DNA from: Desulfovibrio sp. | Lineage (GTDB): Bacteria; Desulfobacterota; Desulfovibrionia; Desulfovibrionales; Desulfovibrionaceae | Direction: 5' to 3' | Assembly: GCA_031279825.1 (NCBI GenBank) | Contig: JAITHT010000081.1 | Coordinates: 1 to 64,000 of the forward strand | Length of the DNA: 64,000 bases | Part shown: positions 7,654 through 31,413 of the stretch, one piece after another | Layout of the letters: every line of letters begins with the position of its first letter | Numbering within the stretch: position 1 is the stretch's first letter | Notes under the pieces: generated by a model | Databases searched by the model: none | What the model was told of the DNA's origin: nothing | Seen by the model: only the letters and a program-made list of their open reading frames with translations | Position numbers and translations under genes: made by a program

Positions 7654-7661
7654 AATATATC

Positions 7662-8645
7662 ATGATCATTACGAGAACGCCCTTACGCATCAGCTTTGCC
7701 GGCGGCGGCAGCGATCTGCGGGATTTTTACAGCCGCTTCGGCGGCGCGGTACTCAGCGTCAGCATCAATAAACACGTTTACCTGTCCATGCACCCCTACT
7801 TTTCCGAGGGGGGATATCTGCTCAAATATTCCCATTCGGAACAGCGGGACAGCCTGGAACAGATCGAACACAACATTATCCGGGAGGTTTTCCGCCGCTA
7901 CGCCATCAAGGGCGTGGACTTCAACTCCAGCGCGGACATCCCCTCCGGCACGGGGCTTGGTTCTTCTTCGGCCTTTACCGCCGGGCTTATCCATCTTTGC
8001 AACGTCCATAACGGAACCTACATGTCCAAAGAAGCCATGGCGGACGAGGCCGCGCATCTTGAAATAGACGTGCTGGGCGAGCCCATAGGCAAACAGGATC
8101 AATACGCCTGCGCCTGCGGCGGCTTGAATCTTATCCGGTTCAGCCAAGACGATACGGTACTGGTGGAAAAGCTGCCTCTGCCCCCTGAAGGATACCGGCG
8201 CCTGGAAGGCAACCTGCTGCTGTTTTACACGGGCAAGAGCCGCAGCGCCGGGAGCATCCTGGCGCGGCAGAAAGAGGATATCCTCAGTCCCCGGAGCGTG
8301 GAAAACCTGCGACACATGACCACCCTGGCCGCCGCGTTGCGGGAGGAGCTGCTGCGCAACAATATCGACGCCATGGGGGAAGTCCTGCACGAAGGCTGGC
8401 TGCGCAAAAAGGAACTGGCCGCAGGCATTACGGACGAGGCCATCGACGCGTGGTATGAGACAGCCAGACAAAACGGCGCGATGGGCGGCAAACTTCTGGG
8501 CGCGGGCGGAGGGGGTTTTTTGCTCTTTTACGTCAAGGAAGAAAATCATACCCGCGTGCGCAAGTCCCTGAACATGTTGCGGGAAACTCCGTTCCGCTTC
8601 GAGAACCAGGGTACGTCCCTCATCCACTATGAGGTGAACGCATGA
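7662..8645 (+). CDS. hddA: GHMP kinase, probable D-glycero-D-manno-heptose 7-phosphate kinase
   Basis: IITRTPLRISFAGGGSDLRDFY, SADIPSGTGLGSSSAFTAGLI, GGKLLGAGGGGFLLFYV; gene context with gmhA and hddC-gmhB. Confidence 0.85.
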   Translation: MIITRTPLRISFAGGGSDLRDFYSRFGGAVLSVSINKHVYLSMHPYFSEGGYLLKYSHSEQRDSLEQIEHNIIREVFRRYAIKGVDFNSSADIPSGTGLGSSSAFTAGLIHLCNVHNGTYMSKEAMADEAAHLEIDVLGEPIGKQDQYACACGGLNLIRFSQDDTVLVEKLPLPPEGYRRLEGNLLLFYTGKSRSAGSILARQKEDILSPRSVENLRHMTTLAAALREELLRNNIDAMGEVLHEGWLRKKELAAGITDEAIDAWYETARQNGAMGGKLLGAGGGGFLLFYVKEENHTRVRKSLNMLRETPFRFENQGTSLIHYEVNA

Positions 8646-9475
8646 AATGCTCCCTTCTGGTCGCCACCACCGACCGCCTGGCGCTGGCGGAGCGTCTCTT
8701 CCATAGCCTTGCGGAGCAGAAGCACAAAGATTTTGAGGTCATTTTCGTTTATGAGGAGTCCTGCGCGGAGGAGGCCGCCGCCCTGGCCGAGGCTTTTCGG
8801 GCCAAGCTGGATATACGCCTTCTGTCCGCGCCGCGTTGCGGCGTTTCCCAAGCGCGCAATCTCGGCCTGCCCCTGCTCACGGGTGAGATTACCGCCTTTC
8901 CTGACGACGACTGCGTGTATCCGCCCGATACGCTGTCCGGTATTGTTGAGCTTTTTCGCGTCCATCCCGAGGCGGACGCCTTGCTGGCCGCCAGAGCCGA
9001 TCTGGATGAGGCGCTCCCCGCCCCCCCCGGCGCGACTGCCCCCGTCCCGGTGAATCGTTACGCCCTGTTCGGTTGCAGCGAAACTTTTTTGCAGTTTTAC
9101 CGCAGCGCTTGCGCGCGGAACGTTGGAGTTTTCGATGAAAAGCTGGGGGCGGGCACGGGCCTGCCCTATGGCTGCGGCGAAGACACCGATTACGCGCTGC
9201 GGGCCATGCGGGCGGGCTTTACCGTGCTGCGCGCGCCCTCCGTGCGGGTACGGCACCCCTCTGTGGATTACAACGATCAATTCTTGCTTGCGAAAGTGGA
9301 AGCTTACGCCCGCGGACGCATGCGTTTGCTGCGCAAACACTCGCTGCCCCTGTGGTTTCGACTGGCTAATGTCGTCTACCCGCTGATGGCTCTGCTACGG
9401 GAACTGCCGAGGCAAGGCTTGAAAAGCGCGAGGTACCGCTGGCGGATGTTTCGCGCGCGGCTGGTCAATTTGTAA
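8642..9475 (+). CDS. Family 2 glycosyltransferase
   Basis: CSLLVATTDRLALAERLFHSLAEQ..., SQARNLGLPLLTGEITAFPDDDCVYPP, GCGEDTDYALRAMRAGF. Confidence 0.85.
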   Translation: MKCSLLVATTDRLALAERLFHSLAEQKHKDFEVIFVYEESCAEEAAALAEAFRAKLDIRLLSAPRCGVSQARNLGLPLLTGEITAFPDDDCVYPPDTLSGIVELFRVHPEADALLAARADLDEALPAPPGATAPVPVNRYALFGCSETFLQFYRSACARNVGVFDEKLGAGTGLPYGCGEDTDYALRAMRAGFTVLRAPSVRVRHPSVDYNDQFLLAKVEAYARGRMRLLRKHSLPLWFRLANVVYPLMALLRELPRQGLKSARYRWRMFRARLVNL

Positions 9476-9490
9476 CCCCGTTGCACTATT

Positions 9491-10054
9491 ATGTCCGAAG
9501 ACGCGCTTCTGGAACCCATTGAGAATTACCTTGCGAGTCTGCGACAGCAGATTGCGGATCTGGACCGCAATGAACTGACGACCTTTGTGGGCTTGTTGCG
9601 CGACGCCCGCGAAGGGGGGCGGCAGATCTTTATCATGGGCAACGGCGGCAGCGCGGCCACGGCCTCGCACTTTGTCTGCGACTTCAACAAGGGGCTGAGT
9701 TTCGGGCGGGATGGCAAATACAAAATCATCTGCCTGAACGACAATGTGCCGACCCTCATGGCCTATGCCAACGATGTGGGCTATGACGCGGTTTTTGTGG
9801 AGCAGCTCAAGAACTTTTTGCGGGCCGGGGATCTGGTCATCGGCATATCCGGCAGCGGCAATTCCGCCAATGTGGTCAAGGCCGTGGAATACGCCAACGC
9901 GAAAGGCGCCGTAACCCTGGCCCTGGCAGGCTATGACGGCGGGGCGCTTAAACGGGCCGCGCGGCACTGCGTGCATGTGAACATAGCGGATATGCAGATT
10001 GTGGAGGATATCCACATGATACTGGATCACATGGCCATGCGGGTGTTGGGGTAA
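9491..10054 (+). CDS. gmhA: Phosphoheptose isomerase (SIS domain)
   Basis: IFIMGNGGSAATASHFVCDFNKG, GDLVIGISGSGNSANVVKAVEYAN. Confidence 0.85.
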   Translation: MSEDALLEPIENYLASLRQQIADLDRNELTTFVGLLRDAREGGRQIFIMGNGGSAATASHFVCDFNKGLSFGRDGKYKIICLNDNVPTLMAYANDVGYDAVFVEQLKNFLRAGDLVIGISGSGNSANVVKAVEYANAKGAVTLALAGYDGGALKRAARHCVHVNIADMQIVEDIHMILDHMAMRVLG

Positions 10055-10056
10055 GC

Positions 10057-11745
10057 ATGCAAGACGGGGATACAGGCGCTGTCGCGGAAAGCGGGCGGAT
10101 GGGAAAGCGGATTTGTCTTTTTGCCGGGTTCAACGCGGCAAACCGGCTTGAGGGTTATGTTTTACATTTGCTGCGCGGGCTGGCGCGCCATGCGGATCTG
10201 TATTGCCTCTCGGACGATGACCTCCCCCCCTCTGAGCATCAAAGACTGAAAGGCATCGTCAAAAAATCCTGGTCATACCGGCACGGCAAGTACGATTTCG
10301 GCTCCTGGCAGGAAATAATCCGTAAGATCGGCTGGAGCGAGCTGGAACGCTATGATTCGCTGTTATTGGTGAATGACAGCAATTATGGACCGCTTTTTGA
10401 TCTGGAAAAAATCTTTTCTGTTATGGACACGCGCTGTGTTGACGCCTGGGGCATCACAGCGAGTAATGGCGGAGACAGGCACTTGCAAAGCTATTTTTTG
10501 TGTCTCTCTAAAAATTTTTTTCTGTCGCCTGTTTTTAAAATATTTATTGAAGGTATAGAACAACAAAAGAATAAACTCGCCGTATCTTCCGCATATGAAC
10601 TGGGTTTGAGCCGGTTGATGCGGCAAAATAATTTTTCCACATCGCAGTATATAGAGAACGGTTCATTATATATTCCATACCACGCCGATATAACATCGTA
10701 TCAAAATTCCCTTTTAGATGCCGGAAGCCCGTTTATCAAGCGTAAGGTATTTTTTGAGCGCTGGTTCGCGAAAGAGTCTTTGCGAGGAACATACCATAGA
10801 ATAAAACAATTTGATTATCCATGCGAATACCTGCCTGTTCTGACATGTTTCAGAAGTATTACATCTGATATATCACAATTTTTCAATATTAAAAAAAAGA
10901 TTATAGATGCTATAAAGTATATTTTGGCTAATAATCCGTATATGTTTAGGTTTACTTCTAATTTGTTATATAATTTATATATCTATAAAAGAAGTTTTTT
11001 TATGCTTATAAAAAATATTTTTTCTCCCATAAGATGTGGAGTATGCGCGTCATCAGACATGTTGCTTTTTGAAAAAAGAATTAACAAGCAAGGAGAGATA
11101 ATTGACGTTCTCATATGCCCGGAATGCCATCTCTTAAGTTATTCTCAAGTGATGGATGTCAATCAACAAAAAGGATCTAGAGACGAATTCTATAGCCATA
11201 TTTTTGATGAAAGCCCAAATATAATAGCACAGCACATAGAACTTTCGAGGAGTTTGGTAAGATCTATTATTAAATACATAGATGGATTTGAAGATAAAAT
11301 TTACTTGGACTATGGGTGCGGAGCGGGATTCGCCAGTGTGGCTGCCGCCGAAGAAGGTTTTGCTCAAGTATATGGAGTAGATGTTGATATTCAATTATGT
11401 AAACGTCTCTGCGCATGTTACCATGTGCCAAAAAATATTCAGTTTTATAATACACTATCAGAGTTGCCACAAAAAGCTGATGTTGTAATACTTTGGCAGG
11501 TCATTGAGCATATTGATGACCCATATAGTTTTTTTTGTAAATTGAATGAATATTGCGTTAAGCATAAAACTCAATATTTTATTCAATTTCCTCAATACGA
11601 TAGTAGGTATATATGCAAATCACATTGCAGTTTTTATAATGAAGTATCTATACGAAAGCTTTTCAATCGCCTTAATTGGACAATTTTTAATATAGTATAT
11701 GACTATCAAAATGCGTTTATGACTGTATATGTAAAAAATTCCTGA
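10057..11745 (+). CDS. Two-domain protein: RgpF-like (rhamnan synthesis F) N-terminus plus Zn-ribbon SAM methyltransferase C-terminus
   Basis: N-term FAGFNAANRLEGYVLHLLRGLARHADLYCLSDDDL...YDSLLLVNDSNYGPLFDLEKIF; C-term CGVCASSDMLLFEKR...LICPECHLL and YLDYGCGAGFASVAAAEEGFAQVYGVDVD. AT-rich from about 10.4 kb. Confidence 0.7.
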   Translation: MQDGDTGAVAESGRMGKRICLFAGFNAANRLEGYVLHLLRGLARHADLYCLSDDDLPPSEHQRLKGIVKKSWSYRHGKYDFGSWQEIIRKIGWSELERYDSLLLVNDSNYGPLFDLEKIFSVMDTRCVDAWGITASNGGDRHLQSYFLCLSKNFFLSPVFKIFIEGIEQQKNKLAVSSAYELGLSRLMRQNNFSTSQYIENGSLYIPYHADITSYQNSLLDAGSPFIKRKVFFERWFAKESLRGTYHRIKQFDYPCEYLPVLTCFRSITSDISQFFNIKKKIIDAIKYILANNPYMFRFTSNLLYNLYIYKRSFFMLIKNIFSPIRCGVCASSDMLLFEKRINKQGEIIDVLICPECHLLSYSQVMDVNQQKGSRDEFYSHIFDESPNIIAQHIELSRSLVRSIIKYIDGFEDKIYLDYGCGAGFASVAAAEEGFAQVYGVDVDIQLCKRLCACYHVPKNIQFYNTLSELPQKADVVILWQVIEHIDDPYSFFCKLNEYCVKHKTQYFIQFPQYDSRYICKSHCSFYNEVSIRKLFNRLNWTIFNIVYDYQNAFMTVYVKNS

Positions 11746-11761
11746 CATGCTGAGAATATAA

Positions 11762-14700
11762 ATGTCCTCATTATCTTTCACCGGTGAGCGCATTGTTCCG
11801 GAAGCCGACAATTGTGAGCCGAATTTTGCGGAAAAAATGCGGCAGGAGCATATCTGCCGCTATTACTTCGCCGCGCAATTCGTCAAGGGGAAGAGAGTCC
11901 TTGATGTCGGCTGCGGCGTAGGGTATGGCTCGCGGCTTATGGCGGACGAAGGCGCCGCGCGGGTTGTCGCGTTTGATATTGATCAGGACGCCATTGCGCA
12001 TGCCGGGCAATTCTATGCTCATGAAAAGGTGATGTTTGCATGCGCGTCGGCATTCGACTTTGATTTTGGCGAAGGCTGTTTTGATGTTGTAACCTGTTTT
12101 GAACTGATTGAACACGTGGAGCAGCAGGATAAAGTCCTGCGCATGATCAAACGCGCATGCGCGCCTGACGGTCTTCTGGTTATTTCAACGCCGCGTCCTC
12201 TGGAAAAAAAGAGGGCAGCCTTTCATGTCCGCGAATTGCATATTGATGCATTTTTGGGGTTAATTAAAACGCAATTCCCATATCATCGCCTTTTCTTTGA
12301 AAATAATCATTTTTCATCCCTGGTAACCGATTCTTCGCCTCCCCCGACCTTGGCTCCTGTATATATGCGCAAACAATTTACCGCGGACCAGGCGGATTAT
12401 TTTATATGCCTGGCGTCCTTATCACCGCTTGAGCCTGGGCGGATTAATTCCGCTTTGGTCGTGAATGACGACAAGTATGTGCTTTTGCTTGAGCATGACG
12501 TGGCTGCGCTACGGAGCGTCGAAACGACATTGACTGCCCTGCTGAAGGAACGGGATGCGGAGATAGACGAGCATAAGATGACCATTGCTGAACTGATCAG
12601 CCCTTTACACAAGTCATATCTGCAAATGAAATTTTATGCGTTGCGGCGCCGGGGCAAACAATTTTTTATGACGCTCAAGGCCGAAGGGCTGTGCCCCGCT
12701 TTAAGGAAAACAAAAAATGTTATCCTTCGCCGTTGTCATTACCAGGGCAAAGCAAATAACGCGCCGCAAGCCCGCCTCTTTTCTCCCGCTGCGGACCTGG
12801 TCTTTGTCTCCGGCTGCGGCGGGCCGTCCCAACGCTACCGCGTGGAGAATATAGCAGCGGGCTTACAAGAGCTTGGTTTCCATGCCGATGTGCTGGCAGG
12901 GAATGAAATCGACTTGCTCAGAGGCTGTCGCCCCTTGCCCAGGGCGGTCGTTTTTTTCCGCTGCGCCGATGTGAACGATGTACTGTACAGTCCCGTGGTC
13001 GAATTTTTAACCAAGAATGGGGTCAATGTTTTTTGTGACTACGACGATTTGGTTTTTGAGCCGGACATAGTGGACCGGATAGACGCGGTTAACCGTCTGA
13101 CGCCCGGACAGCGGCAGGAATACCGGCAGGGAGTGGAAGCGTACAGGCAATTGGCGCAAAGATTTTCGCGGGGTACGGCCTCCACGCGCTTTCTGGCCGC
13201 CCGCCTGGAAAGCCTGCTTGCCCCCGGCTGCGCGCGTGTTATCCCCAATTCCCTCAACCGCGCCCAATTGATCCTGGCTGACCGGCTTTGGCGGCAGAAC
13301 CCGGCGGAGACGCCGTCCGGCCGCCTGAATATCGTATATGCCAGCGGCACCCGGACACATCAGAAAGACTTTGAGGAATGCGCCCCGGCTTTGGCCCGTT
13401 TTCTGCGTGAATACCCAAACGCCCGCTTTATCCTCATCGGGCATTTGGACCTGCCGCCCGCGTTCGGGGAATTTGAGGAAAGAATCCGCGCCAAGCCGTT
13501 TTTGCCCTATCTGGACTTACTGGCGGAAACGGCCAAGGCCGATATCAATCTGGCCCCCCTGGAGAAACATCCCTTCAATGACGCCAAAAGCGAACTGAAG
13601 ATTTTTGAGGCGGGCATTGTGGGCGTACCCACCATTGCTTCACCCGCGGACAGTTATGCCGCCTGCATAGAAGACGGAGTGGACGGACTTTTGGCCGCGA
13701 CGGAGGAGGACTGGTATAAGGCGCTGTGCCGTCTGGCCGATGACGCGGACTTTCGCCAAAGCCTGGGTCGTAAGGCCAGGGAAAAAGCCGCCGCCCGTTT
13801 CAGTTATACCACAGCCGCCCGCATCGCCGCGGAGACATACGGATTGCTGCCCGCGGCCGGCACGGCCGGGGCTTCGCCCGCGCACCGGCATGCCCCGCCG
13901 GAAACATATGATCCCGCGCGTCTTGATATCGCCTGGGTTCTGCCCAACCTGATGCCGAACAGCGGAGGGCACCGTAACATTCTGCGGGCGGCGCATCATC
14001 TTTCTTTGTTCGGCCACAGGGTCGCCCTGTACATCATGAACACGGATCAGAGCGCGCAAAAACTGTCGGAGGATATCAAAAGCCATTATTATCCGTTTAC
14101 AGGCGCGGTAACGCCTTATAACGGCGTTATCGCCGCGTGCGACGCATTGTTCGCCACCCACTGGTCAACGGTGGAAACGGTTATGCGGCACGCGGACTCA
14201 GCCGCGGAACGCATGTATTTTGTCCAGGATTTTGAACCTTATTTCGTGCCGATGAGTTCCGAATTCATTAAAGCGGAAAATACCTACAGGCAGGGCTTCT
14301 ATCATATCTGTTCCGGCCCCTGGTGCGAGCGCTTTCTCAAACGGGATTACAGTGCCGAGGCGGACAGTTTTCTGTTCCCGGTTGACAGGACGGTGTATCA
14401 TCCGAGGGAACGCGTAAAAGACAATAAAAACATCGTCTTTTTCGCCAAACCGGAGATGATGCGCCGCTGCTACGAGCTTGGCCTGGAGACGCTGCAGGCC
14501 TTCCACAAGCTGCGGCCCGATGTGGAGATACTCTTTTTCGGCTCCAGGAATGTGGATGCCCGGCGGATTTCCTTCCCGGTTACCACATGCTCCACTCTGC
14601 CGACCCTGGATGATCTGGCCGCGCTCTATGCCAATGCCGATCTCGGTCTTGTCTTTTCCACCACCAACCCCAGCCTGGTACCCTACGAAATGATGGCCTG

Positions 14701-16090
14701 CGGTTTGCCCGTGGTGGATCTGGACAGAGGCGACAACCATTATAATTATGGGGAACGGCGGGATATCGCGCTGCTGGCCGACCCCCGCCCCGAAACAATG
14801 GCCCGGCAAATGGCCGGGCTTTTGGATGACAAGAAAGAACTTGCCAGGCGGCGCGCCAACGGGTTGGAATTTGTCAATACCTTTCCCACGGAAGAAGAGA
14901 TGGCCCGAAGGGTGGAAAGTCTGATTACCCGGCGATTTAAAAAATATTCTTCAGGAGAAAAAGTTTCCCTTGTGGAAGCGGGTGTTTGCGGCAGGAGGGG
15001 CCTGGATTTATCCAAACTTACATCCTACCTGCGGGAAAACGGCTTCAACGTTTCCTCGGACGATGGCGGGGGGGATATTCTGCTGTTTTGGGGCTGCGCG
15101 TTCAACCAATCCAACGAGGAAGCCTCCCTTAAAAAATTGTACAGCATGGAATCCCGCTACAAAAAAATATTCATCATGGAAGGGCTGGCCATGACTGTTC
15201 CGGTGGAAAGCCTGCGCCCCCGCCTCTCCACTGAACCGATTATCATCAAAATGCACGAAATGGAAAAATTGGACGAGTATTTTTACCGTACCGTGCGGTG
15301 GAGCGAGAGCAAAGAAAAAAATGACTCCGTCTTCACCCCCGCGTCCGATCGGACAACCTGGTATATCCAGACATGCCGCGGCTGTCTGGATAACTGCTCC
15401 TATTGCGGGGACAAGAAGGTTGTGGGGCAATTGCGCAGTAAACCGCTGCGCGCCGTTATGGAGGAATGCCGCCGGGGACTTGCAGAGGGGTATGCCGCCA
15501 TACGTCTTATAGGGGATGATGTCGGCGCTTATGGACTTGATGCGGGCTCTTCCGTCTTTGATCTGCTGGACGCGGTCACCCTTTTGCCGGGTCTTCAATC
15601 GCTGGAAATAGAGGAAATCAATATAAAATATCTGATAAAAGATCGGACACGCTTAAGAGATATCTGCCGCCGCGGAAAATTTAAATTTTTTTGCCTGGCC
15701 TTTCAACATGTAAGCGACGAAATTCTTGCCCGTATGAATAGAGGATACACACGTAAAGAAATGGAAGAACTTTTGGATATTCTCCATGAAGCCGATGTGT
15801 GTATTCGTTTTCATGCCATTATCGGATTTCCGGGTGAAACACCGCATCAGTTGGATGCATTGCTGTGTTTCATCATTGATAAAAAATTACATGCCGGGGA
15901 TATTTTTATTTATCAAAAGCGCGCATATACCCCCGCCGCGAATTTTGACGGGCATTTTTCCCGTGGCGCGATTAAAGAAAAGATCGATACAGTTGTCCAT
16001 CGGCTGGAAAAAGCGGGTTACGATGTCGGACATCATTATTTAAATGATGAGCGGCTGCCCGATAAAATATGTATCGAGAGAAAAAAATAA
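11762..16090 (+). CDS. 1442-aa multidomain protein: SAM methyltransferase, two GT-B-like glycosyltransferases, MiaB/RimO-like radical SAM
   Basis: MT: KRVLDVGCGVGYGSRLMADEGAARVVAFDID; GT1: VSGCGGPSQRYRVENIAAGLQELGFHADVL...LKIFEAGIVGVPTIAS; GT2 (WsaF-like): DIAWVLPNLMPNSGGHRNILRAAHHLSLFGH...LVPYEMMACGLPVVDL; rSAM: CRGCLDNCSYCGDKK (CX3CX2C) with RLIGDDVGAYGLD and HAIIGFPGET. Confidence 0.85.
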   Translation: MSSLSFTGERIVPEADNCEPNFAEKMRQEHICRYYFAAQFVKGKRVLDVGCGVGYGSRLMADEGAARVVAFDIDQDAIAHAGQFYAHEKVMFACASAFDFDFGEGCFDVVTCFELIEHVEQQDKVLRMIKRACAPDGLLVISTPRPLEKKRAAFHVRELHIDAFLGLIKTQFPYHRLFFENNHFSSLVTDSSPPPTLAPVYMRKQFTADQADYFICLASLSPLEPGRINSALVVNDDKYVLLLEHDVAALRSVETTLTALLKERDAEIDEHKMTIAELISPLHKSYLQMKFYALRRRGKQFFMTLKAEGLCPALRKTKNVILRRCHYQGKANNAPQARLFSPAADLVFVSGCGGPSQRYRVENIAAGLQELGFHADVLAGNEIDLLRGCRPLPRAVVFFRCADVNDVLYSPVVEFLTKNGVNVFCDYDDLVFEPDIVDRIDAVNRLTPGQRQEYRQGVEAYRQLAQRFSRGTASTRFLAARLESLLAPGCARVIPNSLNRAQLILADRLWRQNPAETPSGRLNIVYASGTRTHQKDFEECAPALARFLREYPNARFILIGHLDLPPAFGEFEERIRAKPFLPYLDLLAETAKADINLAPLEKHPFNDAKSELKIFEAGIVGVPTIASPADSYAACIEDGVDGLLAATEEDWYKALCRLADDADFRQSLGRKAREKAAARFSYTTAARIAAETYGLLPAAGTAGASPAHRHAPPETYDPARLDIAWVLPNLMPNSGGHRNILRAAHHLSLFGHRVALYIMNTDQSAQKLSEDIKSHYYPFTGAVTPYNGVIAACDALFATHWSTVETVMRHADSAAERMYFVQDFEPYFVPMSSEFIKAENTYRQGFYHICSGPWCERFLKRDYSAEADSFLFPVDRTVYHPRERVKDNKNIVFFAKPEMMRRCYELGLETLQAFHKLRPDVEILFFGSRNVDARRISFPVTTCSTLPTLDDLAALYANADLGLVFSTTNPSLVPYEMMACGLPVVDLDRGDNHYNYGERRDIALLADPRPETMARQMAGLLDDKKELARRRANGLEFVNTFPTEEEMARRVESLITRRFKKYSSGEKVSLVEAGVCGRRGLDLSKLTSYLRENGFNVSSDDGGGDILLFWGCAFNQSNEEASLKKLYSMESRYKKIFIMEGLAMTVPVESLRPRLSTEPIIIKMHEMEKLDEYFYRTVRWSESKEKNDSVFTPASDRTTWYIQTCRGCLDNCSYCGDKKVVGQLRSKPLRAVMEECRRGLAEGYAAIRLIGDDVGAYGLDAGSSVFDLLDAVTLLPGLQSLEIEEINIKYLIKDRTRLRDICRRGKFKFFCLAFQHVSDEILARMNRGYTRKEMEELLDILHEADVCIRFHAIIGFPGETPHQLDALLCFIIDKKLHAGDIFIYQKRAYTPAANFDGHFSRGAIKEKIDTVVHRLEKAGYDVGHHYLNDERLPDKICIERKK

Positions 16091-16173: not shown

Positions 16174-17467
16174 GATGCAAAACTGGATTAGCTTGAACGA
16201 TTGCCTGGAAAGCGTGTCTTTAGAGTATAGCGACGTTGAGACGCCCCGCCCGGCGCTTAACGGCGAAAGTGAATTTCACCCACGCCGCACAGGCGGGCGG
16301 CGGGGCTTCGCCTTACCCGCCGCCGGGCAATTTCATTTTGAAATTGCCCGGGATAAAGCGATATCTGACGATCTGGACAAAATTCGAAAAATATCACTGC
16401 AATTTGGGTGGCAATCATGGACTTCCACTGATTATCAGGATGCCGTTATAGAGATTATTTACCGCCTGCAATCCCACCCGGGCTGCGTTATTGAATTGGG
16501 TTCATTTAACGGTGGAATGAGCGTGCTTTTGGCCTATGCCTGTCATAAAACAAATAAAAAACTATTTTGTATCGATATTGACGCAAATGCCATAAAGACA
16601 ATAAGAGAACATCTGAATTTATTAGATATTCCAACATCCCACGTTACCCTGTGCACGGGAACCATTGATAGTTTCATAGAAAACCATCAGATGGCCGTGC
16701 CCCCTTCCGTGGTAATTATCGACGCGATGCATTCGTATCAATGCTGCCGGCATGATTTATCCGCTGTCTTGGCCAACTTTTCCAATACTGAAATGATAGT
16801 TCTGCATGACTATGCCCTTACATATAGCCCCAATGCCATATTGTCAGGAGAAAAAGTACCCCTGTTTCCCGGAGTTAAGTCAGCGGTATCGCATATCCTG
16901 GGCAATGACGCTCCCATGGTCCGATTGGGTATTACAGGCGAAGATCAAGTTAGCGTTAATGATACTGAAAATTTTCAGAGCAAATCATTAATATGGGAGC
17001 ATGGAGAGCCGGAGGCAATTGCTTTTAAGCCGTCAATGATGCCAACGGAATCAATACATCGCGCGACATCTTTTATGATTTTTGAATTAATGAAAAAAGA
17101 GCAAAGAATAAGGCATATGCGCGACAATGATATACAAAAATATACATTGTTATCCTCAAACGGCCAATGGCGGGATTATGAAATTAAATATAAAAAGGCA
17201 ATTGACGCGCGCATGTTGTGTTACAAGATACAAACCATAAATCAAGGAACGGATGTAAATATGCGGATGGCCTTGCTCGCGCCTGATGAGAATAATGTCC
17301 TGGAACAATATTTTTCTGTGCCGCATGGGTGGACATCCATTCATATCAACGCTTCTGACTTGAGCGTCTTACGGGGACAGCCGGATGTATCGCGGGTAAC
17401 GCATTGTTATATCGGCGGGATGATTGGGCCGGAGGGGATAAGGATTCTATGCGAAACAAATCCTTAA
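16174..17467 (+). CDS. SAM-dependent methyltransferase-like protein with a GC-rich in-frame insert near its N-terminus
   Basis: CVIELGSFNGGMSVLLAYACHKTNKKLFCIDIDANAIKTIREHL, VVIIDAMHSYQCCRHDLSAVL. ATG at 16174/16175. Confidence 0.65.
16323..16351. repeat. In-ORF palindrome related to the dispersed hairpin
   Basis: CCGGGCAATTTCA-TTT-TGAAATTGCCCGG, 13-bp perfect arms, inside CDS 16174-17467. Confidence 0.85.
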
Positions 17468-17494: not shown

Positions 17495-18904
17495 ATGAAT
17501 ACACGCATTCGACATGATTCTCGTAAATTTAACTTTATTGCTAACGACATAACGAATTATTGCAATGCGCGGTGCGTATTCTGCCCTAATGATTGGCAGA
17601 GTCCCCCAACATCGCATAATATGAACATGGAATTATTCAAGAAGCTATTGCAATGCATACCTTTGGGGTATCAAAATTCATTTGTTTTCAGTTGTCAGTA
17701 TGAACCTACCCTGCATCCTGAATTTTATGATTATCTTGAAATGATTCCAGACGAATTTAAAGATAATTGTTATTGCTTTACAAGTAATTTTGTAAAACAT
17801 ATCTCGGATGACAACCTGATGCGCATTGCCAGGTGTAATATACAATATATCAATATTTCACTGGAAACATTTGATAATACATTATATTATGATTTATGTG
17901 CGATAAAAAACAGTCACCTGTATGACAACCTGTCCCGACTGTCTGGTATATTGGCTTCGGTTAAAAATGCTCCTCGCCTCAAGTTTACGACAATGATCTT
18001 AAAGGACAATCAGGATGAATTGATTGAATTATATAAAACAGCTCAAGAACGCTATCATCCTTTTGAGCACGAGTTCAGAACACCTGTTTTTCTTCCCCCC
18101 AATGACAAGCAACGCGAAGATATAAGGGGAATGTTGTTATCCAAAACAGAACTCTCGGCATTGAAAGATACATTGTTGAGTCTCGGCGATAATATTTTTG
18201 TCTATGATGCAATGGATATAGAATATTTTGAATACGTTACAAATCCAAAAACCAAACCCTCCCCAAGGAAGAATGCGCATGATAAGTATATCATCTTTAT
18301 ACGCCCCGACGGGAGCGTTTGCTCTTATAATGAAAAGCCTGTTTGCGCCGATCTGGCGTCAATTGACAACCCTGCCGCATTTTTTCAGAATGTGCTGATT
18401 GAAATACAAACGGAAGATGCCCTGGAAAATCGTATTGAAAAATATGACTCTTCGGCAAACCCATATGACGGCCGGGTTACTATATCCTTAGACGATATTG
18501 TCATTTTCGACAAAAAATTCTTGTATCTCACCGGTTTTTGTTTTTTGCCCGATCTCTCTCCGCGCAATGCCGATAAAATCCTTTGCGTCTCATGGGGCAG
18601 CGGAAAAAAATTTTATAAGCTTCATGGCGTCCAACGGCCTGATTCCGGGGACGCGGGCTTTTGGACGACTATCAATGTATCGGATGATTTGGCGCCTTCC
18701 ATTGGACAAACATTTAGCTTTACAATCATCCTGGCCGATGCATACGCCGTTGAACTGGGCGTTATGTCCGTTATTAATGATGACGCCTATCAATTTATCA
18801 GCGCTAATACTCTGCTCCAAACTCCTCAAAGACCTCTCCCGATCATGAGCCGGATAAAAGGCCGGATAATGAAAGGACTTTCAAGAGAAAAACCATGGCG
18901 ATAA
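17495..18904 (+). CDS. Radical SAM protein of the glycan locus
   Basis: FNFIANDITNYCNARCVFCPNDWQSPP (CX3CX2C), NIQYINISLETFDNTLYYDL; late IFIRPDGSVCSYNEKPVCADL stretch. Confidence 0.8.
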   Translation: MNTRIRHDSRKFNFIANDITNYCNARCVFCPNDWQSPPTSHNMNMELFKKLLQCIPLGYQNSFVFSCQYEPTLHPEFYDYLEMIPDEFKDNCYCFTSNFVKHISDDNLMRIARCNIQYINISLETFDNTLYYDLCAIKNSHLYDNLSRLSGILASVKNAPRLKFTTMILKDNQDELIELYKTAQERYHPFEHEFRTPVFLPPNDKQREDIRGMLLSKTELSALKDTLLSLGDNIFVYDAMDIEYFEYVTNPKTKPSPRKNAHDKYIIFIRPDGSVCSYNEKPVCADLASIDNPAAFFQNVLIEIQTEDALENRIEKYDSSANPYDGRVTISLDDIVIFDKKFLYLTGFCFLPDLSPRNADKILCVSWGSGKKFYKLHGVQRPDSGDAGFWTTINVSDDLAPSIGQTFSFTIILADAYAVELGVMSVINDDAYQFISANTLLQTPQRPLPIMSRIKGRIMKGLSREKPWR

Positions 18905-19866
18905 TCATCATCGGCGGAGCCGGCTTCATCGGCAGCAAACTGACCCGGCGTTTTTTAGATGCCGGGGACAGGGCGCTGGTCATAGATAACCTCTGCCGGG
19001 GGCGGAAGGAGTTCATTGACACCCCGCCCGGCAAGGAGCGCCCGGAGTTCGTCCACGCCGACGCCTCGGACGCCCGCGCCCTCCGGCGCGTCATGGCGGA
19101 GTACCACGCCCGCCATCCCGTGGACATGGTCTGGCACATGGCGGCTAATTCCGATATCCCCGCCGGCATTGCCGATGCCTCCGTGGATTTGCGCGACACC
19201 TTCATGACCACCCACGCCGCGCTGGAGGCCATGAAACAACTGGGGCTGAAAAAACTGGCCTTTGCCTCCAGCTCCGCCGTCTATGGGGATCACGGCCCGG
19301 ACCTTCCCCTGCGTGAGGATACCGGCCCGCTGCTGCCCATCTCCAACTACGGGGCCATGAAGTTGGCCTCGGAGGCGCTCATCAGCGCCGCTGCCGAAAA
19401 CTATCTGGAACACGCCTGGATTTTCCGCTTTCCCAATGTGGTGGGCATACCCGCCACCCACGGGGTTATCCTGGATTTTATCCGCAAACTCAAGGCCACG
19501 CCGGGCAGGCTTGAGGTACTCGGCAACGGAACGCAGCAAAAGGCCTACCTGCATGTGGACGAACTGGTGGAAGCCATGCTCTTTATCGCGGACAGGGACA
19601 ACGGCAAACGCAATCTCTACAATATCGGCCCGGATGACGCCGGGTGCCGCGTGGCGGACATAGCGGCGGCCGTGGCGGAACGGGTCAGCCCCGGCGCGCG
19701 CGTGCTCTTCGGTACTGAAGGACGCGGCTGGGTCGGCGATGTGCCCAAATTCCGCTACAGCGTGGCCAAGGCCGCGGCTCTGGGCTGGAAGCCGCGCTTT
19801 TCCTCCCTGGATGCCGTGCGCCGCGCTGTGGACGAAATAGCCCGGCAGGAAGAGGCGGCTTCGTGA
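18895..19866 (+). CDS. NAD-dependent nucleotide-sugar epimerase/dehydratase (SDR)
   Basis: AIIIIGGAGFIGSKLTRRFLDAGDRALVIDNLCRGRKEFI; ASSSAVYGDHG and YGAMKLASE catalytic region. Confidence 0.88.
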   Translation: MAIIIIGGAGFIGSKLTRRFLDAGDRALVIDNLCRGRKEFIDTPPGKERPEFVHADASDARALRRVMAEYHARHPVDMVWHMAANSDIPAGIADASVDLRDTFMTTHAALEAMKQLGLKKLAFASSSAVYGDHGPDLPLREDTGPLLPISNYGAMKLASEALISAAAENYLEHAWIFRFPNVVGIPATHGVILDFIRKLKATPGRLEVLGNGTQQKAYLHVDELVEAMLFIADRDNGKRNLYNIGPDDAGCRVADIAAAVAERVSPGARVLFGTEGRGWVGDVPKFRYSVAKAAALGWKPRFSSLDAVRRAVDEIARQEEAAS

Positions 19867-21224
19867 TGTCTCTCAAACACGCCGTCATCCTGGCCGGAGG
19901 CAAAGGCACGCGGCTGGCCTCGCGCTTGAACGGTCTGCCCAAGCCCCTGGTGGATATCGCGGGCGTGCCGCTGCTGGAGCGCCAGCTCCTGCACTGTAAA
20001 TCCTTTGGCGTTGCGTCCGTGCTGCTCCTGGTCAACCACCGCGCCGACAGCATCGCGGAGTTTTGCGCGCAAAAAAATGACTTCGGCCTGCGCATAGCCC
20101 TGGTTGATGACGGCGAGCCGCGCGGCACGGGCGGGGCCGCGCTGGCCGCCCTGCCGCGCCTCGCGGCCGATGCGCAAGACATCCTGGTCATGTATGGCGA
20201 CACCCTTGTGAACGTTGACCTGGAAAGGTTTTATGCCGTCCATGCGGCCAGGGGGGCGGACGCTTCCCTGCTTTTGCACCCCAATACCCATCCGCGGGAT
20301 TCCGATCTGGTGGAACTGGACGAATCCGGCTGCCTGGCCGGACTGCATCCCTATCCGCACCCGGAGGGCGCGGAATATCCCAACCTCGTCAATGCGGCCC
20401 TGTACATCATGCGAAGGCCGCTCCTGGAGGACTTTCAGCATCTGGCGGCGGGCGGCCCCAAAGTTATCGATTTCGCCAAAGACCTGTTCCCGCTCATGCT
20501 GCAAAAAGGGAAAAAACTTTACGGTTACCTTTCCCCCGAGTACCTCAAGGATGTGGGCACGCCGGAACGTCTGGACGACGCCGCGGCCGACGTTCTGTCA
20601 GGGCGCTTTGCCAAGGGGACGCTGCGCCTGCCCCAAAGGGCGGTTTTTTTGGACAGGGACGGCGTGCTCAACAAGGACGTGGGTCATATCACCCGCCCGG
20701 ATCAGCTCGGGCTTTTGCCGGGCAGCGCGCGGGCCGTGCGCCGTTTGAACAGGGCGGGTATGCCGGCCGTGGTGGTCACCAATCAGCCCGTGCTGGCGCG
20801 GGGCGAATGCGATGAAGCGGCGCTGCGCGGCATACACACGCGCCTGGAACATCTGCTCGGACTGGAAGGGGCCTACATAGACCGCCTTTATTACTGCCCG
20901 CATCATCCTGACAAAGGCTTCCCGGGAGAACGCCCGGAATTGAAAATATCCTGCTCCTGCCGCAAGCCCGCTCCGGGCATGGTGTTCAAGGCTGTGGAGG
21001 ACTTGCATATTGATCTTCGTAACAGCTGGCTTGTGGGCGACAGGAAAAGCGATGTCCAGTGTGCGCAAAACGCGGGGTGCCGCTCGATACTGACGGCCAT
21101 GGAGCCTTCCGGGCGGGACGGCGGGGTTTTTGCGGATATGGGAGACGTCCGGCCCGATTTCATGGCGGCCGATCTCGCCGCCGCCGTTGACATCATTTTA
21201 CTGCGGCAAGAGCAAACGAGGTAG
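19863..21224 (+). CDS. Fused heptose-1-P guanylyltransferase (HddC-like) and HAD heptose bisphosphatase (GmhB-like)
   Basis: AVILAGGKGTRLASRLNGLPKPLVDIAGVPLLERQL (NTP transferase) then AVFLDRDGVLNKDVGHITRPDQLGLLPGSARAV...CSCRKPAPGM...WLVGDRKSDVQCAQNAG (HAD). Confidence 0.9.
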   Translation: MMSLKHAVILAGGKGTRLASRLNGLPKPLVDIAGVPLLERQLLHCKSFGVASVLLLVNHRADSIAEFCAQKNDFGLRIALVDDGEPRGTGGAALAALPRLAADAQDILVMYGDTLVNVDLERFYAVHAARGADASLLLHPNTHPRDSDLVELDESGCLAGLHPYPHPEGAEYPNLVNAALYIMRRPLLEDFQHLAAGGPKVIDFAKDLFPLMLQKGKKLYGYLSPEYLKDVGTPERLDDAAADVLSGRFAKGTLRLPQRAVFLDRDGVLNKDVGHITRPDQLGLLPGSARAVRRLNRAGMPAVVVTNQPVLARGECDEAALRGIHTRLEHLLGLEGAYIDRLYYCPHHPDKGFPGERPELKISCSCRKPAPGMVFKAVEDLHIDLRNSWLVGDRKSDVQCAQNAGCRSILTAMEPSGRDGGVFADMGDVRPDFMAADLAAAVDIILLRQEQTR

Positions 21225-22306: not shown

Positions 22307-24154
22307 ATGCATATTTTGCGGCAATTGCGTCATAGGTTCATAGACGACTTTCAGCGCGTTTACGCGCTGTTGCCGCTTCGTCTGCGGCGGCGCACACTGC
22401 GCGTGTTTTTTTACATCATCATCCTGGCCTGTCTGGAAGTACTCAGCATTCTGTCCATTTCCTTTCTGGCGCTCAGTGTGGCCGCTCCGGAAAAACTCGC
22501 GGAATTCGGTTTTATTCCCACCCTGTTCCGTCTTTTCCCCGGTCTCATCTCTTTGCGCGCCGACCCGCGCCTGTTCGCCCTGCTTGCCTCCTCGGCGGTG
22601 GTTGGGCTGATCATGGTCAAAAACAGCATGTCGGCCTTTGCGGGAATGGCCGCATCCCGTGTGGGCGAGGATATCGCTTTGTTCGCCGGGGATACGCTCT
22701 TCAGACACTACTTGCACAGCCCCTACATCCGCCACCTCGCCGGCGGCGACGGCATGTCCCAGGCCATCGCCTGGCGCGGCCAACTGGGCAACATGGTCAT
22801 CAACATAATGATGGTCTATAGTTACGCGGCCATCTCTTTGGCGCTTTGCATCACGTTGATCAGAGCCACGCCGGAGGTTTTGCTGCTGGTCATAGGGGGT
22901 GTGACGCTCTTTGCCGTAAGCCTGTACAAAAGTATGAAACACTCCATAGACAAGGCCGGCGTCCTCTCCTCCGACTTCAGCGCCAAGGAGACGGGGGCGA
23001 TGCTGAACGCCATGCGCGGCGTGCGGGAGATTCTGATTTACCGGCAGCAGCCGGTATTTTTCAAGGTCTTTCATGACGCCTGCCAGAGCGGCGTGCCCAG
23101 CCGCGCCTTTCTTGCCATCGCGCCCTCCATCCCCCCCTGGGCGCTGGAAGTGGTCGGGTTTATAGCTATCCCCATCACGATGGGGGGCATGCTCTGGTTG
23201 TATGACGCTTCCATGGCGCGCATGACCGGCGTTTTGACCATGATCATGCTGGTCTCCTGGCGCGTGCTCCCTCTTTTCAGCCGCTCCCTCTCCTGTCTGG
23301 TCGCCATGCGCGGGATGCGCCCCCCGGCCATGGCATGCCTTGAGCGTGTCGAAGAGGCGTTGCGCAACCCTGTTGAGGCTCACGTCGAGCCCGCACCCGA
23401 CTTCGCCCTGCGCAAGAACATTGTTTTCGACCAGGTATGCTTCCGCTATCCGGCGGCGGAGCATGACTCTCTGCGCGACCTGCGCTTTTCCATCAAGCGC
23501 GGAGACTGCGTCGGCATCATAGGGACGTCCGGCGCGGGTAAAAGCACCATCGCCGCCATCCTCAGCGGGCTCGTCCAACCAACGTCCGGGGATTTTCTGG
23601 TTGACGGCAAACCCTTGACGCCGGCCGAACTGGCCGCCTACTCCCTGCAGGTCGGATACGTGCCGCAGGCGCCCTACCTCATGCCCGGAACTCTGGCGGA
23701 AAATGTCGCTTTCAGCCAGTGGGGCAAGCCCTGGGACGAGGAAAAGGTGCTGATGGCCTGCCGTCTGGCGTCCCTGGATATTGTGGATGCCCATCCCATG
23801 GGTATCAGGCTGCCCATAGGGGAACAGGGCACGGGGCTTTCCGGCGGACAGGCGCAACGGCTTTCCATCGCCAGGGCACTGTATGCCAACCCATCCCTGC
23901 TCATTCTGGACGAGGCGACCAGCGCCCTGGATTCGGCCGTTGAATCCGCCATTATGAAGACTATTTATGCACTCCCCAAAACACTGACCACCGTGATCAT
24001 AGCGCACCGATTGTCCACCGTGGAACACTGCGACAAACTCTTGTGGATAAACAACGGCGCAATCGCGGCAAGCGGCGCGCCGGACGTCATATTGCCGCGC
24101 TATAAAAAACATCTGGATGCAAGCGCCGGACGATTTACGGAGCAATACGCCTAG
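22307..24154 (+). CDS. ABC transporter (fused TM/ATPase), probable lipid-linked glycan flippase
   Basis: Walker A GIIGTSGAGKSTIAAIL, signature LSGGQAQRLSIARALYANPSLLILDEATSALD, N-terminal TM domain; end of glycan operon. Confidence 0.88.
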   Translation: MHILRQLRHRFIDDFQRVYALLPLRLRRRTLRVFFYIIILACLEVLSILSISFLALSVAAPEKLAEFGFIPTLFRLFPGLISLRADPRLFALLASSAVVGLIMVKNSMSAFAGMAASRVGEDIALFAGDTLFRHYLHSPYIRHLAGGDGMSQAIAWRGQLGNMVINIMMVYSYAAISLALCITLIRATPEVLLLVIGGVTLFAVSLYKSMKHSIDKAGVLSSDFSAKETGAMLNAMRGVREILIYRQQPVFFKVFHDACQSGVPSRAFLAIAPSIPPWALEVVGFIAIPITMGGMLWLYDASMARMTGVLTMIMLVSWRVLPLFSRSLSCLVAMRGMRPPAMACLERVEEALRNPVEAHVEPAPDFALRKNIVFDQVCFRYPAAEHDSLRDLRFSIKRGDCVGIIGTSGAGKSTIAAILSGLVQPTSGDFLVDGKPLTPAELAAYSLQVGYVPQAPYLMPGTLAENVAFSQWGKPWDEEKVLMACRLASLDIVDAHPMGIRLPIGEQGTGLSGGQAQRLSIARALYANPSLLILDEATSALDSAVESAIMKTIYALPKTLTTVIIAHRLSTVEHCDKLLWINNGAIAASGAPDVILPRYKKHLDASAGRFTEQYA

Positions 24155-29123: not shown

Positions 29124-30260
29124 TTATGCCGCCAGAGCCTGCCGTATGTCGGCCCACAGATCCTCCGGATGCTCGAGTCCCACCGAGAGGCGGACGAGGG
29201 CGTCGCTTATTCCCCGCGCGGCGCGTTCCTCCGGCGGCATGGCGGCATGGGACATGGTGGCCGGGTGGCTGAGGATGCTTTCCACCCCGCCCAGACTGAC
29301 GGAAACCAGGGGAAGGGTGACGCGGCGCAAAAAGCGCCCGACCGCCTCGGGGCTTTCCAACTCGAAGGAAAGCACGGCGCCCGGGCCGGAGGCCTGGAGA
29401 TCGTGGACGGCCTTGCCGGGATGTTCCGGAAGGCCGGGGTAATGGACGCGTCGCACTCCGGGCAGCGCGGCCAATTTCGGTGCCAGGAACATGGCGCCGG
29501 CCTGCCCGGCCTCCATGCGTACGGCCAGGGTTTTCATGCCGCGCAGCAACAGCCAACTGTCCTGCACCCCGAGAACGGCGCCGAAGGCGTTCTGGATGCG
29601 GCGCAGTTTTTCCCCCAGGCTTTTTTCCCGGGCCACGGCCAGTCCGGCAAGCACGTCGCTGTGGCCGTTCAGGAACTTCGTCGCGCTGTGAAGCGCGAGA
29701 TCAAAGCCGAGTTCCAGGGGACGCTGCAGAAAGGGGGTGCAGAAGGTGTTGTCCACTATGGAGAGGATGCCGCGCTGCGCGGCCAGTTGCGCGATGAAGG
29801 CCAGATCCGTGATTTTCAGTAGGGGATTGGAGGGGCTTTCCACGATAATGCCCCTGGTGTCGGGACGCAGGGCCGCGTTTACGGCTTCCTGCCGTGTGCT
29901 GTCCACAAAATCGGCATGCAGGCCCCAACGCCTGAAAAGGGTGGTCAGAATGCGGAAGGTGCCCCCGTACACGTCCGTGCCGACCAGCAGATGATCCCCA
30001 GGCTGAAACAGCAGGAGAACGGAGGAAATGGCGGCCATGCCGGAAGCGAAGGCCAGGCCGACGGCGCCTTTTTCCAGTTCGGCCGCGGCCTGTTCCAGCG
30101 ATTCGCGCGTGGGGTTGCCGCTGCGCGTGTAATCGTAGGCGTCCGTGACGCGCGGCGCGCGTTGATCAAAGGTCGAGGCCAGGTATACGGGTACGCTGGA
30201 GGCACCTGTAAAGGGGTCGCGGCTGGTGCCGGCGTGTATGAGGCGGCTTTTGAACTGCAT
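29124..30260 (-). CDS. Cys/Met-metabolism PLP enzyme (cystathionine gamma-lyase/synthase family)
   Basis: MQFKSRLIHAGTSRDPFTGASSVPVYLASTFDQ, YDYTRSGNPTRESLEQAAAELEKG, LHSATKFLNGHSDVLAGL. Confidence 0.9.
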   Translation of the reverse strand: MQFKSRLIHAGTSRDPFTGASSVPVYLASTFDQRAPRVTDAYDYTRSGNPTRESLEQAAAELEKGAVGLAFASGMAAISSVLLLFQPGDHLLVGTDVYGGTFRILTTLFRRWGLHADFVDSTRQEAVNAALRPDTRGIIVESPSNPLLKITDLAFIAQLAAQRGILSIVDNTFCTPFLQRPLELGFDLALHSATKFLNGHSDVLAGLAVAREKSLGEKLRRIQNAFGAVLGVQDSWLLLRGMKTLAVRMEAGQAGAMFLAPKLAALPGVRRVHYPGLPEHPGKAVHDLQASGPGAVLSFELESPEAVGRFLRRVTLPLVSVSLGGVESILSHPATMSHAAMPPEERAARGISDALVRLSVGLEHPEDLWADIRQALAA

Positions 30261-30276
30261 GTATCGTCTCCCCGGG

Positions 30277-31413
30277 TTAATCCAGCACTCCGGCCAGATC
30301 CCCGATAAGGTCTTCGGGATCCTCAAGCCCGACGGACAGACGCACCAGGCGTTCCGTCAGGCCGATGCGTTGTTGCACGTCCGCAGGCATGTCGGCATGG
30401 GTCTGCACAAGGGGGAAGGTTACCAGCGATTCCGTGGCACCCAGACTTTCCGCAAACAAAAAGACCCTGACGGAGGCCAGAATATGTTCCACCACGGCGC
30501 GCGATGCCACCTCAAAGGAGAGCATGCCGCCATACCCCCGCGCCTGTTTGCCCAGCGTGGCGTGCCCGGGATCCGAGGGCAGACCGGGATAATGGAGTCG
30601 GGATATTTTCGGATGGCCGGCCAGAAACGCGGCGATGGCCCGCGCATTCTCTTCATGCCGTTTCAGGCGCAGATGCAGGGTTTTGAGACTGCGCAGCAGC
30701 AGCCAGGATTCAAAGGGGCCGAGTATGGCGCCGGCGGCATTCTGGATAAAGGCCAGACGTTCTCCCAGTTCCGGATTTTTTGCGACAAGAAGGCCGGCGA
30801 TGAGATCGTTGTGTCCGCCCAGATATTTGGTGGCGCTGTACACCGTGACGTCCGCGCCGAACTCCAGGGGGCGGCACAGGGCCGGGGTCAGAAAGGTGTT
30901 GTCAACCAGATAGAGTATGCGGCGCTTCCTGGCCAAAGAGGCAAGGGCGGCCAGATCCGCCACCTTCAGCAGGGGGTTGGTGGGCATCTCCACGAACAGC
31001 CCCTTGATCCCCGGTCTGTCCAGGGCCGCGGATACGGCCTTGAGATCCGCCGTATCCACATAGTGGAAGTCAAGACCGCGGCTTCTGCCGAAATTCTCGC
31101 ACAGGCGGAAGGTGCCGCCGTACAGGTCTTCGGTGATCAGCAGCGCGTCGCCGGGGGAAAAGAGGCGGAGCGCCGCGTCAACGGCCGCCAGGCCGGAGGC
31201 GAAGGCCAGACCTCTGCTCCCGCCGTCCAGAGCGGCTATGGTCCGCTCAAGGACCAGGCGGGTGGGGTTGCTCGTGCGGGAATAGTCGAAGCCGGTGCTT
31301 TGCCCCAAGGCCGGATGCTGAAAGGCGGCGGAAGGATGGATGGGCATGGCGATGGCACCGGTGCGGGGATCCTGCCGGGAACCGGCCTGAGCCAGCATGC
31401 TGTCTGTTTTCAT
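30277..31413 (-). CDS. metB: Cys/Met-metabolism PLP enzyme (probable cystathionine gamma-synthase)
   Basis: MKTDSMLAQAGSRQDPRTGAIAMPIHPSAAFQHPALGQSTGFDYSRTSNPTRLVLERTIAALDGG, VYSATKYLGGHNDLIAG. Confidence 0.85.
   Translation of the reverse strand: MKTDSMLAQAGSRQDPRTGAIAMPIHPSAAFQHPALGQSTGFDYSRTSNPTRLVLERTIAALDGGSRGLAFASGLAAVDAALRLFSPGDALLITEDLYGGTFRLCENFGRSRGLDFHYVDTADLKAVSAALDRPGIKGLFVEMPTNPLLKVADLAALASLARKRRILYLVDNTFLTPALCRPLEFGADVTVYSATKYLGGHNDLIAGLLVAKNPELGERLAFIQNAAGAILGPFESWLLLRSLKTLHLRLKRHEENARAIAAFLAGHPKISRLHYPGLPSDPGHATLGKQARGYGGMLSFEVASRAVVEHILASVRVFLFAESLGATESLVTFPLVQTHADMPADVQQRIGLTERLVRLSVGLEDPEDLIGDLAGVLD

Follow-up and report, generated by a model that had tools for sequence, protein, structure and literature searches.

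In a 64,000-nucleotide stretch of Desulfovibrio sp. contig JAITHT010000081.1 (hereafter the window), we analyzed a fusion gene whose product joins a methyltransferase, two glycosyltransferases and a TRAM-less radical S-adenosylmethionine (SAM) domain of methylthiotransferase (MTTase) type. The interpretation that we favor, and to which we give about an even chance, is that the gene encodes a four-module protein of glycan assembly with a C-terminal domain that modifies a sugar by a radical reaction, probably one other than canonical methylthiolation. The host genome is a 2.2-Mb metagenome-assembled genome (MAG; 83% complete) of a sulfate-reducer-type bacterium, with the gene on contig C16.

Domain layout of the fusion protein

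The gene and its modules were placed by open reading frame (ORF) and Pfam analysis, structure prediction and alignment, as follows.

11762-16090, forward strand: 1442-aa fusion gene, methyltransferase / GT4 / WsaF-like GT4 / TRAM-less MTTase-like radical SAM (ORF and Pfam)
11762-12511, forward strand: SAM-dependent methyltransferase domain, residues 1-250, end approximate (Pfam Methyltransf_23/11)
12779-13876, forward strand: glycosyltransferase domain 1 (GT4), residues ~340-705 (Pfam Glyco_trans_1_4)
13874-14941, forward strand: glycosyltransferase domain 2, WsaF-like GT4, residues ~705-1060 (Pfam and PDB sequence match)
14953-14957, forward strand: AGGAG at the glycosyltransferase/radical SAM junction, probably a vestigial ribosome-binding site (sequence)
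14957-16087, forward strand: TRAM-less MTTase-like radical SAM domain, residues 1066-1442 (TIGR00089, AlphaFold2 and tree)
14987-14989, forward strand: auxiliary-cluster Cys1, C1076 (alignment)
15095-15097, forward strand: auxiliary-cluster Cys2, C1112 (alignment)
15185-15187, forward strand: third auxiliary-cluster position, Leu1142 (CTG) in place of Cys (alignment)
15383-15406, forward strand: radical SAM motif C1208-x3-C1212-x2-C1215 (MAFFT alignment)

The 1442-aa ORF contains no internal stop. Pfam matches above cut-off were obtained for the methyltransferase domain (residues 36-148), Glyco_trans_1_4 (523-661), WsaF_N and WsaF_C (794-845 and 889-1017; 27.9 and 51.9 bits, respectively, cut-off 27) and Radical_SAM (1203-1368). 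An earlier model-generated note on this DNA, made without database searches (the sequence-only reading), had described one unbroken frame carrying a methyltransferase, two GT-B-like glycosyltransferases and a radical SAM module, and both the frame and its composition were borne out. The best PDB sequence match of glycosyltransferase domain 2 was WsaF (residues 791-1041, 4e-10), with the alignment reaching WsaF residue 400 of 413.

Fold and motifs of the C-terminal domain

TIGR00089 (MiaB/RimO family) spanned residues 1076-1418 with 161-165 bits, under its cut-off of 251; the domain scored under all NCBIfam MTTase cut-offs, and UPF0004 by itself reached 18.3 bits against a Pfam cut-off of 27. 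The best PDB sequence match of the C-terminal part was RimO (1e-18). An AlphaFold2 model of the product of 14942-16087, computed from an alignment with 44 relatives, had a predicted local distance difference test score (pLDDT) of 90.4 and a predicted template modeling score (pTM) of 0.89. Its closest solved structures by VIA-align were MtaB (Z 32.6), RimO (31.1) and MiaB (30.8), each over ~345 residues, followed by MgmA (Z 24.8) and AprD4 (Z 23.8). Because the model matches MtaB, RimO and MiaB, we regard the N-terminal part of the domain as MTTase-like, its UPF0004 score notwithstanding; the resemblance to MiaB and RimO proposed from the letters thus has a structural counterpart.

The CX3CX2C and GFPGE motifs are preserved. 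A Pfam search found no TRAM in the 1442-aa protein, and the identical search recovered TRAM_2 in the RimO and a weak TRAM in the MiaB of the same genome, in agreement with the earlier statement that a TRAM-like tail is lacking. The protein continues for 235 residues after the first radical-SAM Cys, compared with 286-365 in canonical MTTases.

Loss of the third auxiliary-cluster cysteine

The auxiliary cluster of MTTases is bound by three Cys in the UPF0004 domain (PMC5352715). These positions were located in a MAFFT alignment with RimO, MiaB, MtaB and about 50 TRAM-less relatives. Leu at the third position occurs only in the window protein and in L058, its nearest relative (34-36% identity); the remaining rows that extend over this position have Cys. 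The window protein reads IMEGLAM and L058 reads ILEGLAD, with TTG as the Leu codon; the automatic alignment of L058 is off by one column and shows G, and the translations give EGLA with Leu. The altered residue noticed in the sequence-only reading (GLAM) is therefore real, although it is not peculiar to this protein but common to a two-member subclade. As the Leu is shared at 34% identity, decay of one gene is an unlikely cause of the loss. No conserved replacement Cys was seen in the N-terminal part of the radical SAM domain.

L058 lies in a Desulfuromonadales MAG (CAMYNR010000168.1). Besides EGLA, it shares with the window protein a short linker and an adjoining methyltransferase gene, in this case a TylF-type gene 61 bp downstream. 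It differs in that its contig stops ahead of the N-terminus, which was sought on other contigs and was not found.

A TRAM-less family separate from canonical MTTases

Relatives were gathered by repeated searches with growing alignments. A single-protein search of genome contigs returned none, and the alignment-based search recovered them. One alignment-based sample was skewed to H-x-I-x-GFP proteins because this motif served as the search key, and most matches of the broad homologue searches were ordinary RimO, MiaB or MtaB, which were set aside. The recovered homologues are stand-alone proteins of 380-430 aa with 211-248 residues beyond the first radical-SAM Cys. None of those scanned with Pfam showed TRAM; the same scan picked up TRAM_2 in two RimO and, weakly, TRAM in MiaB, and it missed that of MtaB.

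A maximum-likelihood tree of the TRAM-less relatives with RimO, MiaB, MtaB and archaeal e-MtaB separated 51 TRAM-less rows from the 11 canonical rows (support 100/100). The window protein and L058 formed a clade (100/97) outside a 15-row 'GLNxC' clade (100/100) and within a wider 28-row group (99/98) that is weak in the tree without e-MtaB; that earlier tree had the same main splits, with a weak deeper position of the window pair. The sequence-only reading had suggested a repurposed radical SAM enzyme. The sugar-locus homologues described below agree with repurposing, but the tree places the domain in a wide TRAM-less set and so not directly as an offshoot of MiaB or RimO.

Family members were found in 4 of 348 genomes of the order (E 1e-65) and, within the genus, in none of the other members sampled, a rarity that is to be expected of a variable glycan locus. 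Viral contigs held no relative of the domain; in phages and plasmids, the window domain retrieved generic MTTase matches and two clade members retrieved nothing. Three archaeal genomes with TRAM-less members also have a normal e-MtaB.

Several TRAM-less groups stand apart from the glycan-locus members. A tight clade with the signature 'CTRxK ... CTYCSE' (L090, L093, L094, L096, L098, L099, L104 and L105, also L076, L080 and L101) occurs in Bacilli, Clostridia, candidate-phyla bacteria and archaea, without TylF neighbors. The genes of Thermoplasmata (L059-L064 and L075) have canonical e-MtaB alongside in the two genomes checked, and their surroundings are not sugar-like (2-hydroxyglutaryl-CoA dehydratase D component, short-chain dehydrogenases and thiolases; some UPF0004 paralogues); for this reason, we claim the sugar link for bacterial glycan-locus members only. 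A further group (L136-L140; 'RSNGCIDNLLDGKS', three Cys) has non-glycan surroundings. One scored member, L137, passes the TIGR00089 cut-off, so that such genes would automatically be named MTTase.

Sugar loci of stand-alone relatives

The GLNxC clade (including L056, L057, L135, L068, L070, L079, L082 and L084) is located in sugar loci with TylF or Methyltransf_24 genes adjoining. A TylF-type methyltransferase was present in 12 of 14 GLNxC loci (within 1 kb in 10) versus 0 of 35 other loci in the same scan (Fisher's exact test, p about 1e-9, indicative only as the loci are related). The TylF family is named after macrocin O-methyltransferase, a sugar O-methyltransferase. Among 91 proteins neighboring bacterial relatives, we counted FkbM (10), radical SAM (10, of which 8 with a B12-binding domain), Methyltransf_24 (10), TylF (9), epimerase (5) and transketolase (5). 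The search for stand-alone homologues in glycan loci that the earlier note had suggested was thus successful: they have sugar-gene neighbors, and they start where the window domain begins.

One glycan locus (L057, G175) carries two divergent MTTase-like copies (7659-8834 and 10526-11719), each followed by its own TylF-type gene, with transketolase and HddA-like genes nearby. A surface-sugar gene block with arrays of uncharacterized radical SAM genes has been described in Brachyspira (PMC4267127).

Fusion junction

The start of the homologues (M-K-V) aligns to 14957-14965, where the window protein has E1066-K-V, right behind the C-terminal helix of glycosyltransferase domain 2. The joining of once-separate genes is well supported by this alignment, and the AGGAG that the sequence-only reading had placed at about 14956 as a hint of fusion lies at the same point. 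The nearest in-frame start at the junction is GTG at 14972, 14 nt past AGGAG. The remaining two frames are open for ~60 or more codons, which rules out a single-indel artefact as the source of the join. No similar tandem of the two glycosyltransferases was found elsewhere in 150 genomes of the order.

Third-position GC is 0.52 in the methyltransferase, 0.67 in the glycosyltransferases and 0.51 in the radical SAM domain. Within the latter it falls from ~0.62 to 0.40 around codon 1250 (window 15500-16090), as in the next genes, as if the second half of the domain shared an origin with the low-GC genes downstream. The gene is a compositional mosaic, but the GC step and the fusion junction do not coincide.

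Genomic context

The following genes surround the fusion gene.

7662-8645, forward strand: GHMP kinase, D-glycero-D-manno-heptose 7-phosphate kinase-like (HddA-like)
9491-10054, forward strand: SIS-domain phosphoheptose isomerase, GmhA-like
10057-11745, forward strand: RgpF (rhamnan synthesis)-methyltransferase fusion
16175-17467, forward strand: Methyltransf_24/CmcI-type methyltransferase, directly downstream; putative functional link
17495-18904, forward strand: second, unrelated radical SAM protein (MoaA/SPASM-like)
18895-19866, forward strand: NAD-dependent sugar epimerase/dehydratase
19863-21224, forward strand: sugar-1-phosphate nucleotidyltransferase fused to a GmhB-like HAD phosphatase
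22307-24154, forward strand: ABC transporter ATPase, right end of the glycan cluster

Judged by these heptose- and rhamnan-type genes, the locus is a surface-glycan locus. GT2 genes also flank the fusion gene, one among its upstream neighbors and one before the ABC transporter. The Methyltransf_24 gene starts 84 bp downstream of the fusion ORF and is not recognized by the TylF-type profile. The RgpF-methyltransferase fusion has 38% GC amid genes of about 55-60%, which we read as a recent import into the locus. The MoaA/SPASM-like protein, one of two radical SAM modules in the cluster, has ~185 C-terminal residues without a family match, and the 19863-21224 fusion combines two heptose-pathway steps in one protein.

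Elsewhere in the genome, a 1614-aa ORF on contig C80 (L029, 9288-15445, reverse strand) contains three GT2 stretches, a methyltransferase and a weak GT1 match and adjoins a different, 378-aa radical SAM gene; here again a giant glycosyltransferase/methyltransferase fusion is coupled with a radical SAM gene. The window also carries a tandem pair of Cys/Met-metabolism pyridoxal phosphate enzymes of about 400 and 378 aa (29124-31413, reverse strand).

Proposed function and alternatives

In the function that we favor, the N-terminal module would methylate, the two GT-B modules would transfer sugars and the C-terminal module would generate a 5'-deoxyadenosyl radical that takes hydrogen from a sugar, which may be part of a nascent glycan, a nucleotide sugar or a lipid-linked precursor. 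Its physical link to the glycosyltransferases suggests that the domain acts during chain assembly, and the sugar-methyltransferase neighbors of the relatives make it probable that the MTTase fold in this family has been recruited to act on cell-surface sugars. For the three-Cys relatives, methylthiolation or thiolation of a sugar would be the simplest reading. The window branch would be unable to form the three-Cys cluster responsible for methylthio delivery, a cluster state that we infer. Because the third auxiliary Cys is Leu, the reaction would most likely be another radical modification (such as dehydration, epimerization or oxidation), or else a sulfur reaction that uses an altered cluster. 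More tentatively, and with some doubt, we propose a large TRAM-less class whose glycan-locus members would thiolate or methylthiolate sugars with a TylF-type partner, and from which the window branch would have dismantled its cluster and become tied to glycosyltransferases for chain assembly.

Several points weigh against the favored function. The sugar substrate, the type of radical reaction and the activity are inferred; the glycosyltransferase and methyltransferase modules are generic, so the sugar cannot be named; and the cluster ligand lost with the Cys might be supplied by another residue, for example the conserved Glu in EGLA. The window branch is also long (1.5-1.6 changes per site), and the subclade comprises only the window protein and L058, which a contig end cuts short.

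An enzyme that still inserts sulfur, placing a thiol or methylthio group on a sugar with a cluster held by two Cys and another ligand, is a possible but rather unlikely alternative; the neighboring methyltransferase may then S- or O-methylate the product. It would account for the overall MTTase fold, the retention of two of the three auxiliary Cys and the three-Cys relatives in sugar loci adjoining methyltransferases, but it has to accommodate a Leu, common to L058, where Cys is found in all the other sampled relatives that reach this site, with no conserved substitute in the N-terminal domain. A housekeeping-type MTTase acting on tRNA or ribosomal protein S12 and fused by chance would explain the sequence and fold resemblance to RimO, MiaB and MtaB. 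We consider it very improbable, as the domain lacks TRAM, scores under every curated cut-off, falls outside the RimO/MiaB/MtaB/e-MtaB group at 100/100 and is absent from all sampled genus members; this identity was rejected because the genome already encodes separate RimO, MiaB and MtaB.

We regard as improbable a radical 1,2-diol dehydration of the kind catalyzed by AprD4, which deoxygenates a sugar together with a reductase partner (PMC5461906), with an NAD(P)H enzyme here reducing the product. AprD4 with paromamine was the best sugar-acting structural match (6fd2, 343 aligned residues), and a sugar oxidoreductase-type gene lies nearby at 18895-19866; however, that gene resembles an epimerase, MTTases are far better matches, and the Rossmann-plus-radical-SAM layout is so common among B12-type enzymes that the fold alone does not tell the reaction. 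An origin of the fusion in faulty assembly or sequencing, or a domain that is a decaying passenger, is quite improbable, too. The gene is known from one MAG that has no read data, at several of the junction codons a single base change could restore a stop, the branch is long and no second fusion was found. Against this, alignments on both sides stay in frame almost to the junction, the open alternative frames make one indel insufficient, the start codon of the homologues is gone, and the radical-SAM and GFPGE motifs are intact in a confidently predicted model.

Comparison with known systems

The window domain shares with RimO, MiaB, MtaB and e-MtaB the succession of an N-terminal MTTase Rossmann domain and a radical SAM core (Z 31-33), along with Cys1, Cys2, CX3CX2C and GFPGE. 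It differs from them in the Leu at the third Cys position, the lack of TRAM, the fusion to methyltransferase and glycosyltransferase modules and its position outside their clade. The GLNxC proteins (about 380-400 aa) are likewise TRAM-less and found in sugar loci with methyltransferase neighbors, but they keep three auxiliary Cys, are unfused and have 20-24% identity to the window domain. AprD4 has the same Rossmann-plus-radical-SAM layout and acts on a sugar, with 15% identity in the aligned part and a clearly weaker match than the MTTases. Glycosyltransferase domain 2 has both Pfam domains of the WsaF rhamnosyltransferase, here as one module within a larger fusion.

A 2023 paper lists only tRNA and ribosomal protein S12 as MTTase substrates (PMC10702137). 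In the open-access literature, we found no paper on MTTase-like enzymes acting on glycans; TRAM-less groups may have been mentioned before in other journals. The pairing of TRAM-less proteins with sugar-type methyltransferases in sugar loci points to a third MTTase substrate class and predicts that surface sugars of bacteria contain C-S bonds or other alterations made by radical chemistry. A natural branch that is short of one auxiliary-cluster Cys would offer a ready system for probing what this cluster is needed for.

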